Positions 31,308 through 44,142 of a stretch of 44,142 nt of DNA are shown here, one piece after another. The stretch is from positions 1 to 44,142 of the forward strand of contig JARRPX010000039.1 of assembly GCA_037382465.1 (NCBI GenBank). The letters are read 5' to 3'. The notes beneath the pieces are model-generated. The model worked only from the letters and a program-made list of their open reading frames with translations, was not told where the DNA came from and did not search any database. How positions within the stretch are numbered: the stretch's first letter is position 1; each line of letters starts with the position of its first letter. The translations under genes were made by a program, and so were the position numbers. This stretch comes from Anaerolineales bacterium (GTDB lineage: Bacteria > Chloroflexota > Anaerolineae > Anaerolineales > E44-bin32).

Positions 31308-31315
31308 GCTTGCCA

Positions 31316-32107
31316 ATGATCGTCGCTGTCGCAGCTCTGGGATTGGCTTGTGGTTTCCTCGTAAACCTGCTCGCGGACAATCTTCCGCACCGCCAGCCGA
31401 TCCAATCTCCACATTGTCCTGCCTGTGGGGCACCCCGTGAGACCGCCAATTGGTTGGCAATATTGGCTCTCATTCGCTTCAGGCTGCGTTGTCCGTATTG
31501 CGGTACGCGGCGGGCTTGGCGGGAAGTCGTGATCGAATTATCCCTCATCGTAATCGCTCTTTGGCTCTATTTCCGCAATCCGACCCCCGGTGTGTTCTGG
31601 CCTGCTTTGACCGTCGCCACGATCTTTACTTTGATCGTCGTGATCGACGTCGAGCATCGTTTGATCCTGCACGTGGTCAGCGTGCCGTCCGGAATATTGA
31701 TCTTGATCATGAATTCTCTCGATCCCAGCCGCGGTTTCATCAAATCGCTCGCAGGCGGCGGGGCTGGTTTTATCTTCGTGCTTTGCATGTACCTGCTGGG
31801 AGGTATCTTCGGCCGTCACATCGCCAGAGCCCGGGGGAACGGTGAAGACGAGGTCGCATTCGGATTCGGAGACGTGATGCTGGGTACGATGCTGGGTCTG
31901 ACGGTGGGATGGCCTGGAATTATCCTGGCGCTCATCTTTGCGGTCTTCGCCGGCGGTGTTTTCAGTTTGTTTTACATGCTGGTGATGACCCTGCGCGATC
32001 GTTACGACGCTTTTCAACCCATTCCGTACGGTCCGTTTCTCATTTTCGGAGCGTCTCTGGTTTACTTTTTTCGTGAGGCGATCGTTCATCTCATGCCTGT
32101 CGGATGA
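31316..32107 (+). CDS. Type IV prepilin peptidase (A24 family)
   Basis: 263 residues from ATG 31316 (MIVAVAALGLACGFLVNLLAD). The N-terminal cytoplasmic zinc-binding loop has CPACG and CPYCG. The catalytic aspartates of this membrane aspartyl protease are seen in VVIDVEHRLI and in FGFGDVMLG. About seven more transmembrane helices follow. It cleaves the leader of type IV prepilins and pseudopilins and often methylates the new N-terminus. It stands directly upstream of three TadE/TadG-type genes, although their N-termini are not classic class III prepilin leaders. Confidence 0.9.
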   Translation: MIVAVAALGLACGFLVNLLADNLPHRQPIQSPHCPACGAPRETANWLAILALIRFRLRCPYCGTRRAWREVVIELSLIVIALWLYFRNPTPGVFWPALTVATIFTLIVVIDVEHRLILHVVSVPSGILILIMNSLDPSRGFIKSLAGGGAGFIFVLCMYLLGGIFGRHIARARGNGEDEVAFGFGDVMLGTMLGLTVGWPGIILALIFAVFAGGVFSLFYMLVMTLRDRYDAFQPIPYGPFLIFGASLVYFFREAIVHLMPVG

Positions 32108-32303
32108 GAGAGCAACCGCGTAGAAAATGTCCCAATTTCGTTAAAATAAAGCTCCCACAATGTGACAAACACACAGATTTCACCCGGATTAACCCCTGCG
32201 TACTACCAGAAACGTTTTACACTGCCATGTACAATTGCGTGTGAATGAGCGATCCGCTTTAACGCTACCTCAAAATTCGAGCAATCTAGGACAAGGAATA
32301 TCT

Positions 32304-33143
32304 ATGAACGACACCCAACGATTTCAAAAGGTGAGGCATGCAATGTCCTCATGGCGAGGTCGGTGCATTCGATCTCTCAAACGCGGCCAGGGCATGGTCG
32401 AGTTTGCCCTTGCGCTGCCGATCCTGCTTTTCATCGTTTTAGGATTCATTGAAGTGGCGAGGTGGTTCCAGGCGTACCTTTCCGTCCAATACGCCGCCCG
32501 GGAAACGGCTCGGTATGCGGTAAGCGGACAACCTCCGATGTTGATCGACGATGGGGAAGACTCCTGCGAGGAAGTGGGTCAGCCAGAAACAGGCGATCCG
32601 TATACCTTACCCGGTGATTACATCCAGTGTCGCGTGGATTGGATCAAACACGTCGGCGCCAGGTTGGCCGGCTTGGCGCTCATGGCCGACCCGACGCAAA
32701 CGGATATTCGCAAGCCGTACTATCTCGGAGTATTTCTTCGGGGAAGCCCCACGTTTGGCTCTGTACCGGTTGATGATAATCCTGGAGCGGCGCGAACCAA
32801 GGTCGAAATAACGATCGTCTACAACCATCCCGTGACAAATCCCTTCTTCGCCAAGATGCTGCCGACGATCCGGGTCGTCGGACGCGTCCAAATGGTCAAC
32901 GAGCCGTGGGAAGGTGGAGGCGCAGATCCGCCACCTGTGGTGCCGACGGCGACGCCGCTTCCTCCGTTGGACTCAGACGGTGATGGCTGGAGCGATATTG
33001 AAGAACGCGAGATATACGACACTTTTCCGTCCAATCCAGATACCGACGGTGACGGCTACGATGAGGGACCGGGCGGAGCGGATAACACCTCCGAACGAGC
33101 GCTGGATCCCTGTTATCCCGATCCGGGCGCTTGTGAAACGTAG
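32304..33143 (+). CDS. TadE-like protein with a C-terminal calcium-binding tail
   Basis: 279 residues from ATG 32304 (MNDTQRFQKVRHAMSS), with AAGGA upstream. Residues 27-70 (RGQGMVEFALALPILLF, then an aromatic amphipathic stretch) are the TadE signature: a single membrane helix with Glu near its start. The extracytoplasmic part ends in a Pro/Thr linker (208-221) and two acidic loops, DSDGDGWSD and DTDGDGYDEG, of the thrombospondin type 3/EF-hand-like kind that bind Ca2+. Such a tail is unusual on TadE. It is the first of three Tad-type genes with gaps of 21 and 72 bp. Confidence 0.85.
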   Translation: MNDTQRFQKVRHAMSSWRGRCIRSLKRGQGMVEFALALPILLFIVLGFIEVARWFQAYLSVQYAARETARYAVSGQPPMLIDDGEDSCEEVGQPETGDPYTLPGDYIQCRVDWIKHVGARLAGLALMADPTQTDIRKPYYLGVFLRGSPTFGSVPVDDNPGAARTKVEITIVYNHPVTNPFFAKMLPTIRVVGRVQMVNEPWEGGGADPPPVVPTATPLPPLDSDGDGWSDIEEREIYDTFPSNPDTDGDGYDEGPGGADNTSERALDPCYPDPGACET

Positions 33144-33164: not shown

Positions 33165-33812
33165 ATGGTGAATATGATGAGGAAGATAAAATTCCTTCGA
33201 GACAACCAACGAGGTCAAAATTTCGTTGAGATTGCGCTTACCTTGCCGCTCTTGGTCGCCCTGCTCATGGGCATGATGGAGATTGGTTTTCTCGTGCATA
33301 GCGTTTCCACTGTAGCCACGGCCGCGCGCGAGGGCGCTCGTTATGGCGCGCGGGGCATGCACCTCCCATTGGATGAAATTGCCGACGTTACCAAGATTGC
33401 TATGGAATTGAGTCTGGATGTCGATTTGGACAGCCCGGATGCGAATACGCGTATTATCGTAACCTCAGTGGATATCGATCCCGATGGAAGCTATGCCTTC
33501 CAGGACACATATATTTTGGGAGATTTAGATGTTGCCTCCCGGATTTGCTACGACGATCCTTGCGGGGAGGACACGATCGATGTCGACGCGATTGCGGCCG
33601 AAAATGTGGATTTCAACAACGACTCGGAGCGATGTAATGAGGTTGTCTATGGATGCCGGAACGATCTTGTGATCGTAGAGGTATTCTTCGCACATCATCT
33701 AAAGATGGGAAACATGCTGGAAAGCTTCACGAAATACGTGATCCCCACTCCAATCATCATCGATCAACAAAGTATCATGCGCGTCTTGATCCGGCGTAGT
33801 CCCTGGAGTTAA
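33165..33812 (+). CDS. TadE-like pilus/surface assembly protein
   Basis: 215 residues with AAAGGAG before ATG 33165; GTG 33168 and ATG 33174 are alternatives. The N-terminus QRGQNFVEIALTLPLLVALLM is a TadE membrane segment followed by the usual helix (AAREGARYGARG). The remainder is an acidic extracytoplasmic domain with Cys pairs (near CYDDPC and CNEVVYGC) that could form disulfides. TadE-family minor pseudopilins help anchor Tad (Flp) pili. No flp pilin or TadA/B/C motor is in the window. Confidence 0.85.
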   Translation: MVNMMRKIKFLRDNQRGQNFVEIALTLPLLVALLMGMMEIGFLVHSVSTVATAAREGARYGARGMHLPLDEIADVTKIAMELSLDVDLDSPDANTRIIVTSVDIDPDGSYAFQDTYILGDLDVASRICYDDPCGEDTIDVDAIAAENVDFNNDSERCNEVVYGCRNDLVIVEVFFAHHLKMGNMLESFTKYVIPTPIIIDQQSIMRVLIRRSPWS

Positions 33813-33884: not shown

Positions 33885-35879
33885 ATGAGAGACTGGACTG
33901 AAGAACTTATCCGTCGCTCTACGAACGCCATCCGTAAGGTGATACATAGTAGGCATGCCAGTCCGCCTGGCGCGAGATCATTGCAGCGCAGCAGGAATTC
34001 GCGATCCGGTCAAAGCCTCATCATCATCGCGGTGGCCTTTATCGGAATTGTCGCTTTTATTGGTTTCGCCGTTGACACGGGAATCATGTACCTGCATCGA
34101 GTTTGGCTGGGTCAGGCCATCGATGCGGCGGCTCTCGCGGCGGGATACGAGCTTCCGGATATCGAGGGTGCGTGCAGCCGGGCCGTCGAGTACTTGGGCA
34201 CGAACGGCTATGTCGAGGGAGATGAGTTCCATTTCCAGATCGTTTTTACGGCGGACGAACATGCGCCCGGCGGGCCGGTAGGTGAATTCGCCCTCGATTC
34301 CGATATTGACAATCTCACGACCCCGGAGGACTGTACGACGATGACGGTTCCTTCAGAACACGTGAACACACACTATCACGTGCGCATTGCAGGTGAGTTG
34401 ACGGTGCCCGTCGTCTTCATGCGCGTCTTGGGTTTCGAGACCATTCAGGTCGGGACTCCAGCGACGGCGAAACGAACCGCCCAGTATGACGTTGCGCTTG
34501 TGTTGGATGTCTCCGGTTCGATGAATTACGACAGTTGCACCTGGCTTACGGACGAACCCGAATATACCGAGCCGTATGCATGCGAAAACGTTCATAGCGA
34601 GTGCAGTGCCGCATTCGGCGAAGTGGACTTCGATGGCTACGCCGACATCGATGCGATGATTGCCGACGGTTGGGACATCAACAGCACCGACGCGGTGGAA
34701 TTCCAACCTTTGAATGGTCACGATAACGCCGGCGTTCACATCTATGAAGATCCGGCGACCGGCACCGAAGGATCGCTCAGTTGGCAATGGAACGTCACCA
34801 TTCCTGCAGACGAACGTCTCGCCGTCTATTTTTGGGTGAAGAATGATCCTGCATATAAGATGGACGCTTACAGCTGGTCTGGTGATCACAGTGCTGACTA
34901 TGCCAGGTTGGCCTGGCGTGCTTCTCCCACGGATGGCTGGAGTACGGTTATGGGGATCGAGGGCGGCAATGCTTTCGATACCGGTTGGGAGCAATACGCA
35001 GTCGTGATCGATACGGATGAAATTACGGATTACGTAGAACTTCGTTGGGAGGTTGAAGATACGGAGAGCAACGAAGGGTATATGCTCGACGATATCACCT
35101 TGCGAACTTGCCCATTCCAGCGTGGACCAAGCATTACATGGCAAAGCGGTTGCTCTGGGTCAAATCCAAAATCCTGCGACGACGAACAACCCGGTACGCT
35201 GCTTCCGGGTGAATCGGTTGGACCAAATGAAGTGCCCCGACCTAGGCTGTTATCGCAGCCCATGACGGACGTGATCCGCGGGGCGGAGACCTTCGTAAAC
35301 ATTATCAGAGATCGGGCTGACGATTCAGGCATGCCGCGCGAGGATCAAATCGGCCTGGCGAAATATGAACGATGGGCAAGCAAGGTGCTGGATCTCACGA
35401 TCGACTACGAAACCATTGTTGAAACGATGTACACGTCTCTCTCCGCCAATGGTTATACCAACATCGGTGGTGGCATGCGTGTTGGGCTGAGCATCCTCGG
35501 AGACGGCCGGCCAAACACGACCCATTTTATGATCCTTCTGACGGACGGTGTACTCAACACGTACGATTATCCTTATGACGGGTTAGGATCGACGGGCGTT
35601 TACGGCGGAACGGCTTGTTCGCGTTGCCTGGAGTACGTCGATGCCATGATTGCGGAGGCCCAAGATCAGAACGTGATCATCTTCACCATCGGTCTTGGTA
35701 GCGACGTTGTCAATGATACTTTTTCCGCATACGGTGATCCCAATTACACGGGCATGAAACTGATGGAACGAATTGCGACCCTGACCAACGGTCAATCCTA
35801 CTTCGCACCGACGTCGGAGGAACTCGAGGAGATTTTCGAGTGGATTGCGGAGGCGATTTTCGTACGGTTGACTCTCTGA
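33885..35879 (+). CDS. TadG-like protein with a von Willebrand A domain split by a large insert
   Basis: 664 residues; GGAAAGGAAA before ATG. An N-terminal TadG/TadE-type membrane segment (41-66) is followed by a pilus-associated region, then a vWA domain. The MIDAS residues are D208-x-S210-x-S212 (LDVSGSM), T525 (GYTNIGGGM) and D554 (LLTDG). Between the first MIDAS loop and the next vWA helix (about 455, MTDVIRGAETFVNII) sits an insert of about 240 residues rich in aromatic beta-strand patterns, with paired Cys at both ends, resembling a jelly-roll/MAM-like domain. It is probably a metal-dependent adhesion protein on the cell surface. It is the last gene of the Tad-type cluster. Confidence 0.85.
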   Translation: MRDWTEELIRRSTNAIRKVIHSRHASPPGARSLQRSRNSRSGQSLIIIAVAFIGIVAFIGFAVDTGIMYLHRVWLGQAIDAAALAAGYELPDIEGACSRAVEYLGTNGYVEGDEFHFQIVFTADEHAPGGPVGEFALDSDIDNLTTPEDCTTMTVPSEHVNTHYHVRIAGELTVPVVFMRVLGFETIQVGTPATAKRTAQYDVALVLDVSGSMNYDSCTWLTDEPEYTEPYACENVHSECSAAFGEVDFDGYADIDAMIADGWDINSTDAVEFQPLNGHDNAGVHIYEDPATGTEGSLSWQWNVTIPADERLAVYFWVKNDPAYKMDAYSWSGDHSADYARLAWRASPTDGWSTVMGIEGGNAFDTGWEQYAVVIDTDEITDYVELRWEVEDTESNEGYMLDDITLRTCPFQRGPSITWQSGCSGSNPKSCDDEQPGTLLPGESVGPNEVPRPRLLSQPMTDVIRGAETFVNIIRDRADDSGMPREDQIGLAKYERWASKVLDLTIDYETIVETMYTSLSANGYTNIGGGMRVGLSILGDGRPNTTHFMILLTDGVLNTYDYPYDGLGSTGVYGGTACSRCLEYVDAMIAEAQDQNVIIFTIGLGSDVVNDTFSAYGDPNYTGMKLMERIATLTNGQSYFAPTSEELEEIFEWIAEAIFVRLTL

Positions 35880-42636: not shown

Positions 42637-44142
42637 GTGGAAGAAGAAGTAGGACGGCAAGAAGAAGAGCGTAAAGAGAAGCGCAACGAGTTGGCGCAGT
42701 GGCTGCTGCTCGTCCCGCTCATTCTTCTACTGCTTTTTGGCTGCGGAACGTGTGGGATGATGCGCGGCCAGACCGCCCATGCCGATACGCGTTCCCAGAT
42801 GAACGCGGATTACAGTCCGTGGCCCTTCATGGTGCTGCATCCGGTCAATCCTGATATCATCGAGGAAATCCGCCGAGATGCGGAATATTACCCAGGTCCG
42901 GGCAGCGAATCTGGTGACCCCATCGTTGAGCCCGGGGACTTCTGGGAGACCTCGACACCAACCTCCGCTGCGACCCTTGCGGACACACCGACGGCGACCG
43001 AGCTGGCGAGTGCCACGACCACGTCGACGGCGACTGAGCCGGCGAGTGCCACGGCCTCGTCGACGATTACCGCCACAAGCTCACCAAGTTCGACCGCGAC
43101 CGCCACGGATACCGGCACGCCGGAATCGTCAAGCACGCCGAGTTCGACGCCATCACTCACGAACACTCCCACCGAGACGAGCATACCGTGGCCGCCGCCG
43201 CCGGTCCCGCCTCCCGGACCGCCTCCGAATACATACTGGTTTTATGACGACGTCACACCCTTCAGCTACATGATGTATTCCAGTATCCCCAATGGAAATT
43301 ATCGCAGCGGTTCAAGCGCGACGTTCTATTCCCCCCAATTCTTGAACGGTCAGCGCCTCCTGGGGGGAACGACGACCGTGCGTTTCTATGCCTACAATCC
43401 TTCCGCCAGTCCGGTCAGCTTGTCCGTTGAGCTGCGGGCAGGATCGACGGTTCTCGGATCCGCTTCCTTTGCCTTGCCGGCAAACGTCACTTCGGCCTAT
43501 TTCTTCTCCGCCTCGATCAGCACGATCGAGCATGATTTCATCACCGGTCAACGATTGATTCTGCGTTTGACCAGTGGTTCCCCCAGCGCAATATTCTGGG
43601 ATGGGGATTACCATTATTCCGGTGTGCAGATTCCTGCCGTCGTCACCGTACCCACGCCGACGTCTACGAGAACGCCTACGGCTACGCGGACGGCGACGAT
43701 CACGGATACACCTACGATCACGAATACGCCTTTGCCGACGAACACAACAGCTCCACCAGCAGCAACGGCCACCAACACGCCGGTGCCCAGTGACACGCCT
43801 GGCCCGACTTCAACATCTACGCTAACAGCTACGTCGACCGACACGCCGCTTGCAAGCGATACACCGACATCCACGGCCACGTCGACCGACACGCCTGCCT
43901 CGACGGCGACCCCTACGCCGACGGATACCGCGACGGCAGCGTCGACCGACACGCCGACCTCCACATCAACCGACACGCCAATAGCCACGTCGACCGAGAC
44001 ACCGACGGCCACGTCGACCGAGACACCGACGGCCACGTCGACCGAGACACCGACGGCCACGTCGACCGACACACCGACGGCCACGTCGACCGAGACACCG
44101 ACGGCCACGTCGACCGAGACACCGACGGCCACGTCGACCGAG
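42637..44142 (+). CDS. Membrane-anchored Thr/Pro-rich surface protein (3' truncated by window)
   Basis: The frame runs open from GTG 42637 (MEEEVGRQEEERKEKR; GGGAG upstream) to the window end: at least 502 residues. Order: charged cytoplasmic start, one hydrophobic helix (about 27-40, LLLVPLILLLLFGCG), a short extracytoplasmic segment, a Thr/Ser/Ala-rich linker (about 106-185), a Pro-rich hinge, a beta-rich domain (about 198-330, YWFYDDVTPFSYMMYSS) and a second Thr/Pro stretch with perfect 8-residue repeats. Such linkers are common in glycosylated surface proteins of Chloroflexota. The beta-rich domain has no family I recognise. It probably shares a transcript with the Cache kinase. Confidence 0.8.
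   Translation, partial: MEEEVGRQEEERKEKRNELAQWLLLVPLILLLLFGCGTCGMMRGQTAHADTRSQMNADYSPWPFMVLHPVNPDIIEEIRRDAEYYPGPGSESGDPIVEPGDFWETSTPTSAATLADTPTATELASATTTSTATEPASATASSTITATSSPSSTATATDTGTPESSSTPSSTPSLTNTPTETSIPWPPPPVPPPGPPPNTYWFYDDVTPFSYMMYSSIPNGNYRSGSSATFYSPQFLNGQRLLGGTTTVRFYAYNPSASPVSLSVELRAGSTVLGSASFALPANVTSAYFFSASISTIEHDFITGQRLILRLTSGSPSAIFWDGDYHYSGVQIPAVVTVPTPTSTRTPTATRTATITDTPTITNTPLPTNTTAPPAATATNTPVPSDTPGPTSTSTLTATSTDTPLASDTPTSTATSTDTPASTATPTPTDTATAASTDTPTSTSTDTPIATSTETPTATSTETPTATSTETPTATSTDTPTATSTETPTATSTETPTATSTE
43999..44142 (+). repeat. Six tandem 24-bp repeats encoding TPTATSTE
   Basis: Unit ACACCGACGGCCACGTCGACCGAG is repeated six times without spacers; only the third unit differs (final GAC for GAG). 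The array reaches the last base of the window, so its full length is unknown. Degenerate copies extend back to about 43650. It is in frame with the surface protein. Confidence 0.95.

Follow-up and report, generated by a model that had tools for sequence, protein, structure and literature searches.

The product of the open reading frame at 33885-35879 in the window (the whole 44,142-nucleotide stretch of Anaerolineales DNA that was analysed) is a TadG-type minor pilin, in which a single predicted vWA domain is interrupted between strand beta1 and helix alpha1 by residues 214-455. We favour, with a probability of roughly 0.6, the reading that this protein is a TadG tip adhesin whose MIDAS-adjacent loop takes exchangeable binding modules, the module present here being a second binding head. 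The features on which this reading is built are the following, all on the + strand:

31310..32107, + strand: prepilin peptidase (A24) (Pfam Peptidase_A24 and A24_N_bact; tblastn)
32235..33143, + strand: TadE-like minor pilin TadE1 with a DxDxDG-rich tail (Pfam TadE, E 5.6e-15)
33165..33812, + strand: TadE-like minor pilin TadE2 (Pfam TadE, E 8.5e-12; tblastn)
33885..35879, + strand: TadG-like minor pilin with split vWA, 664 aa (ORF; Pfam Tad and vWA; AF2 model with alignment)
34008..34145, + strand: Tad (PF13400) N-terminal membrane/pilin helix, residues 42-87 (Pfam)
34485..34523, + strand: vWA beta1 (201-208) and first MIDAS loop DVSGSM (208-213) (sequence, homologue alignment, AF2)
34524..35249, + strand: insert between vWA beta1 and alpha1, residues 214-455 (sequence and both models; family match absent)
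35250..35876, + strand: remainder of the vWA, from alpha1 (460-481) to the C-terminal helix (644-663), including MIDAS T525 and D554 (Pfam, homologue alignment, AF2, structural alignment)

The 664-residue frame starts with the ATG at 33885 and its stop is located at 35879, and the Pfam search showed the N-terminal Tad helix (PF13400, E 9.3e-7, above the cut-off). The Pfam vWA match was confined to residues 466-651, with an E-value of about 4e-7, and entered the profile only at position 23-27; the first strand of the profile therefore lies elsewhere, as expected with a strand located far upstream. The first-pass annotation had described a TadG-like frame with DVSGSM at 208-213 and a vWA broken just after this first MIDAS loop; coordinates, length and motif were exact, and Pfam, AF2 and structural alignment agree with this description. 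About 242 residues separate DVSGSM from the rest of the one vWA. The homologue alignment paired the stretch QPMTDVIRGAETFV...DQIGLAKY of the window protein with HPFEEVKRAALTFV...DRLAIVTF of the relatives, corresponding to helix alpha1 and strand beta2. An AF2 model of the whole protein from its single sequence, with a pLDDT of 39, was set aside. With an input alignment of 37 sequences, the window protein and 36 relatives, AF2 placed beta1 at 201-208, alpha1 at 460-481, beta2 at 488-494, beta3 at 499-505, beta4 at 546-553, beta5 at 597-604, beta6 at 638-641 and the final helix at 644-663; the pLDDT of the vWA core was mostly about 80-96 and lower at 559-577 and in the loop near 610-620. Structure prediction, which had been proposed as a check of the split, thus bore it out: solved vWA/I domains align across model residues 197-664 with Z 21-25 (VIA-align), and because these matches run across the insert, both segments are predicted to form one vWA. 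The pilus adhesins Mfa5 (Z 23.9) and PilB (Z 23.1, also the top Foldseek hit) were among the best structural matches, in a match list that is occupied by the vWA domain and says nothing on the fold of the insert. All the MIDAS ligand positions are filled (D208, S210, S212, T525 and D554), with T525 invariant and D554 nearly invariant in 20 homologues; judged from these residues the MIDAS set is complete, and metal binding is predicted.

The insert is acidic (20% D+E) and exhibits cysteine residues at 218, 233 and 240 on one flank and at 409, 423 and 431 on the other, around a strand-rich core of ~170 residues (about 240-412) with nine Trp in its 173 residues. Both AF2 models, from the single sequence and from the alignment, showed a strand-rich segment of about seven to nine strands, a predicted count compatible with a beta-sandwich; the pLDDT of the insert in the model with alignment, 32-62, is too low for naming the fold or for a fold search. 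When searched on its own, as had been recommended, the insert gave 0 matches in Pfam up to E 10, no match in NCBIfam and no credible match among PDB sequences. The earlier description of a Cys-flanked, strand-rich segment is thus correct, and its jelly-roll or MAM-like label remains a guess.

No paralogue of the insert was found in its own genome, and no copy of the insert in 27 genomes of the family or, together with its flanks, across 400 genomes of the order; the weak match obtained in the order genomes (E 0.0034) corresponded to an aldehyde-dehydrogenase-like frame and was rejected. Searches with the complete protein found no copies with the same insert in 400 genomes of the phylum and no match in plasmids (tblastn), and viral and genome contigs scanned for peptide patterns gave no match either. 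A horizontal acquisition of the insert DNA is unsupported by base composition, with a GC of 0.54 and a GC3 of 0.60 in the core compared to 0.53-0.57 and 0.64-0.65 in the flanks. The low pLDDT and the acidic composition could also point to a functionless spacer, unstructured or of low complexity, but the tryptophan residues and flanking Cys pairs, the regular strands predicted in both models and the folded-looking modules that occupy the same site in relatives make such a spacer very improbable.

In most TadGs of the family and of the order, whose homologue loci (Anaerolineales) include Bellilinea, Levilinea, Ornatilinea and Anaerolinea, a short Cys/Asp-rich loop is present at the insert site. 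This loop measures 30 residues or fewer in 25 of the 85 distinct homologues parsed, 31-70 residues in 29 and 71-120 in 4, a count that contains one parsing artefact (L081). The best full-length matches were located outside the order but within the class: L035-L038, L040 and L042 from Anaerolineae and Thermoflexales MAGs align over residues 35-231 and 441-662, and their insert of ~280-325 residues occupies precisely the position of the window insert. A class-wide profile search detected same-site inserts in at least eight families (f19, f24, f27, f30, f55, f59, f64 and f67), counts that are enriched for inserts, the search profile itself being insert-bearing. From Anaerolineae TadGs, 25 distinct inserts of 281-393 aa as cut were extracted at the beta1-alpha1 site, and all of them form one family with the pattern IEAE.YS ... 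RGAY ... PRLEYDF ... YIW.R.QGG ... W.W.RL ... LWAGS.GF.IDRIVIT. We found also a weak but repeated similarity to GH115_C in these relatives' inserts (7 of 18, best E 1.9e-6), and the comparison of a relative's insert with the PDB pointed to the GH115 enzyme AxyAgu115A with an E-value of 0.63; on this sequence likeness, the module of the relatives is likely carbohydrate-binding. Two further types of insert were located at the same vWA site. L093 (3965-7684) and L108 (3947-7795) code for giant TadG-like proteins of 1240 and 1283 aa with an unrelated insert of ~300 residues, for which no Pfam match was obtained with the L093 insert, and L149 (508-2019) and L150 (358-2013) code for TadGs from a different class of the phylum, whose insert is shorter and of yet another kind. 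The survey of TadG homologues for insertions at this place, another of the checks proposed earlier, therefore returned several, and the occurrence of relatives without the insert, or with a different module in its place, indicates that the segment is more than an ordinary vWA extension.

The Anaerolineae TadGs with a GH115_C-like insert (L035-L042 and L116-L139) have the gene family, the insert site, the vWA and the MIDAS in common with the window protein, but their own insert belongs to a recognisable module family that differs from that of the window. In an hmmsearch against this family, the window insert ranked 95th of 201, the other 200 sequences being shuffles of the window insert, and hhalign gave a probability below 1% (0.5% in one comparison). 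By sequence, the window insert thus falls outside the GH115_C-like family. These two results also argue against the view that it is the carbohydrate-binding-like module of the relatives diverged beyond recognition, which would imply one ancestral insertion and no exchange, and so does the absence of the E-A-E and W-x-W pattern that is invariant in the family. We consider such a divergence rather unlikely, with several observations on its side: the insert site is identical, the low pLDDT of the insert leaves room for a diverged copy, and MAFFT paired strand-like stretches in the same order (YFWVKN with YIWVRG, ARLAWRA with LRIFWNV and GYMLDDITL with GFALDRIVIT).

The phylogeny of the core bears on the same point. 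In a tree built with the insert excluded, the window protein branched off between the clade with inserts and the clade with short loops. Its firm position inside the insert clade, at 100% in a midpoint-rooted quick tree, was not retained, but rooting on L149/L150 placed the protein as sister to the insert clade with a support of 83/40 and a long branch, so that its proximity to this clade, which would favour divergence, is weak once the tree is rooted. The neighbouring genes were compared with 12 loci by tblastn: TadE2 matched only TadE genes adjoining insert-bearing TadGs, and the window prepilin peptidase matched the peptidase adjoining short-loop TadGs, with 47-52% identity. This pattern is compatible with a TadE2-TadG pair of the insert-bearing type residing in the usual locus of the order.

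A split vWA is already known from a Tad minor pilin. The Caulobacter crescentus CpaL, published in 2025, is a Tad minor pilin whose vWA (148-203 / 384-626) is split by two beta-rich domains (PMC12607857), and it resembles the window protein in combining a pilin-like module with one vWA split by a large beta-rich segment, a complete MIDAS and a Tad system. However, in CpaL ~43 residues of the first vWA segment follow D160 ahead of an insert (204-383) made of two six-stranded barrels (PMC12607857), whereas the insert of the window protein begins with the sixth residue after D208, ahead of alpha1, and does not show the CpaL-type spacing of ~40 residues. The first-pass annotation knew of no such layout for Tad proteins; this is only partly right, given the split vWA of CpaL, although its insert has another position, and inserts at the site of the window protein are also common in Anaerolineae. 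Streptococcus sanguinis PilB has a similar modular pilin with a C-terminal vWA and a functional MIDAS flanked by two arms, but it is a T4P and not a Tad minor pilin, its arms are smaller and sit elsewhere in the vWA fold, the second being a four-stranded sheet, and a full domain after DxSxS is not described (PMC8179133). Predicted Tad tips are formed by TadG and KilN minor pilins whose terminal domains vary, and models in the literature make TadG the large subunit of the tip (PMC12075869). Myxococcus KilN / TadG are comparable to the window protein as large TadG-type minor pilins with a variable domain customising the Tad pilus tip, but this domain is said to be C-terminal, and the available part of that paper describes no vWA insertion (PMC12075869). 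In the literature searched, composed mostly of papers accessible without subscription, we found neither a domain inserted directly after a pilin DxSxS loop nor a carbohydrate-module insert in a TadG.

The fimbrial tip adhesins RrgA, GBS104 and Mfa5, which are not type IV family pilins, also exhibit a vWA into which ARM subdomains are inserted next to the MIDAS, at other positions: ARM2 (98-123 aa) occupies the beta4-alpha4 connection and ARM1 (38 aa) is located inside strand C (PMC7835359). Since such ARM insertions form a MIDAS lid in pilus vWA domains (PMC7835359), and the window insert is likewise located directly beside the MIDAS, the insert could act mechanically or protectively, as a cap shielding or gating the site, with no role in ligand binding. 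We regard this as unlikely: the carbohydrate-module likeness of the relatives' inserts favours binding, and the insert of CpaL reportedly points away from its own MIDAS (PMC12607857).

The insert most likely serves as a second binding head, next to the MIDAS, at the pilus tip. In the corresponding arrangement, the prepilin-like helix and the pilin-like domain (about 40-196) would carry one vWA with its complete MIDAS; the beta1-alpha1 connection, directly after DxSxS, would tolerate and exchange foreign modules, and the Cys-flanked, strand-rich module of ~170 residues would project from the MIDAS face. The TadG-like protein would sit at the pilus tip and act in adhesion, with an insert that may bind glycan or protein and may cooperate with the MIDAS or shield it. 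The different modules found at the same site in relatives suggest, from their sequences, a spot where binding heads are exchanged. More tentatively, it is possible that the beta1-alpha1 connection serves throughout Chloroflexota as a general site of module exchange, into which the GH115_C-like module, the orphan module of the window and at least two other unrelated modules were swapped, giving bivalent or gated Tad tips of interchangeable specificity. The case goes beyond a single oddity, one MIDAS-adjacent site holding several unrelated-looking modules across Chloroflexota, and a tip adhesin may in this way shift its specificity by exchanging the module of its MIDAS loop while the pilin and vWA core remain unchanged. 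Tad pili occur widely, with few of their tip ligands identified so far; natural differences between modules at one site offer direct material on the ligands of TadG tips and on the gating of a MIDAS by a neighbouring module.

Upstream of the TadG-like gene are located the two TadE genes and the prepilin peptidase gene, and contig C75 of the same genome codes for CpaB, a CpaE-like ATPase, TadA, TadB and TadC together. A Tad pilus is plausible because of these TadE and prepilin peptidase neighbours and of the Tad machinery on contig C75. By eye, the tail of TadE1 (DSDGDGWSDIEEREIYDTFPSNPDTDGDGYDEGP) resembles calcium-binding repeats, and NCBIfam gave a weak CglD match. A second Tad-like cluster was found in the same genome on contig C23 (1-14500; L148), beside ParA/ParB-like genes; it contains a TadA-type ATPase, two T2SSF-type genes, one of them with a match below the cut-off, and a 156-aa Tad-domain protein without vWA, and is possibly a plasmid or mobile element. 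In other loci, Tad-domain proteins exhibited a PQQ/BamB-type beta-propeller in place of the vWA: two such genes are present in L081 (3926-5953 and 623-2581) and one in L024, on the reverse strand, with Pfam PQQ_2 at E 5e-19 in L081:3926-5953 and 1.8e-13 in L024, where the Tad match was below the cut-off. At the end of the window, tandem repeats with periods of 36 and 24 were observed at 42989-43065 and 43931-44142, with low-complexity frames on both strands.
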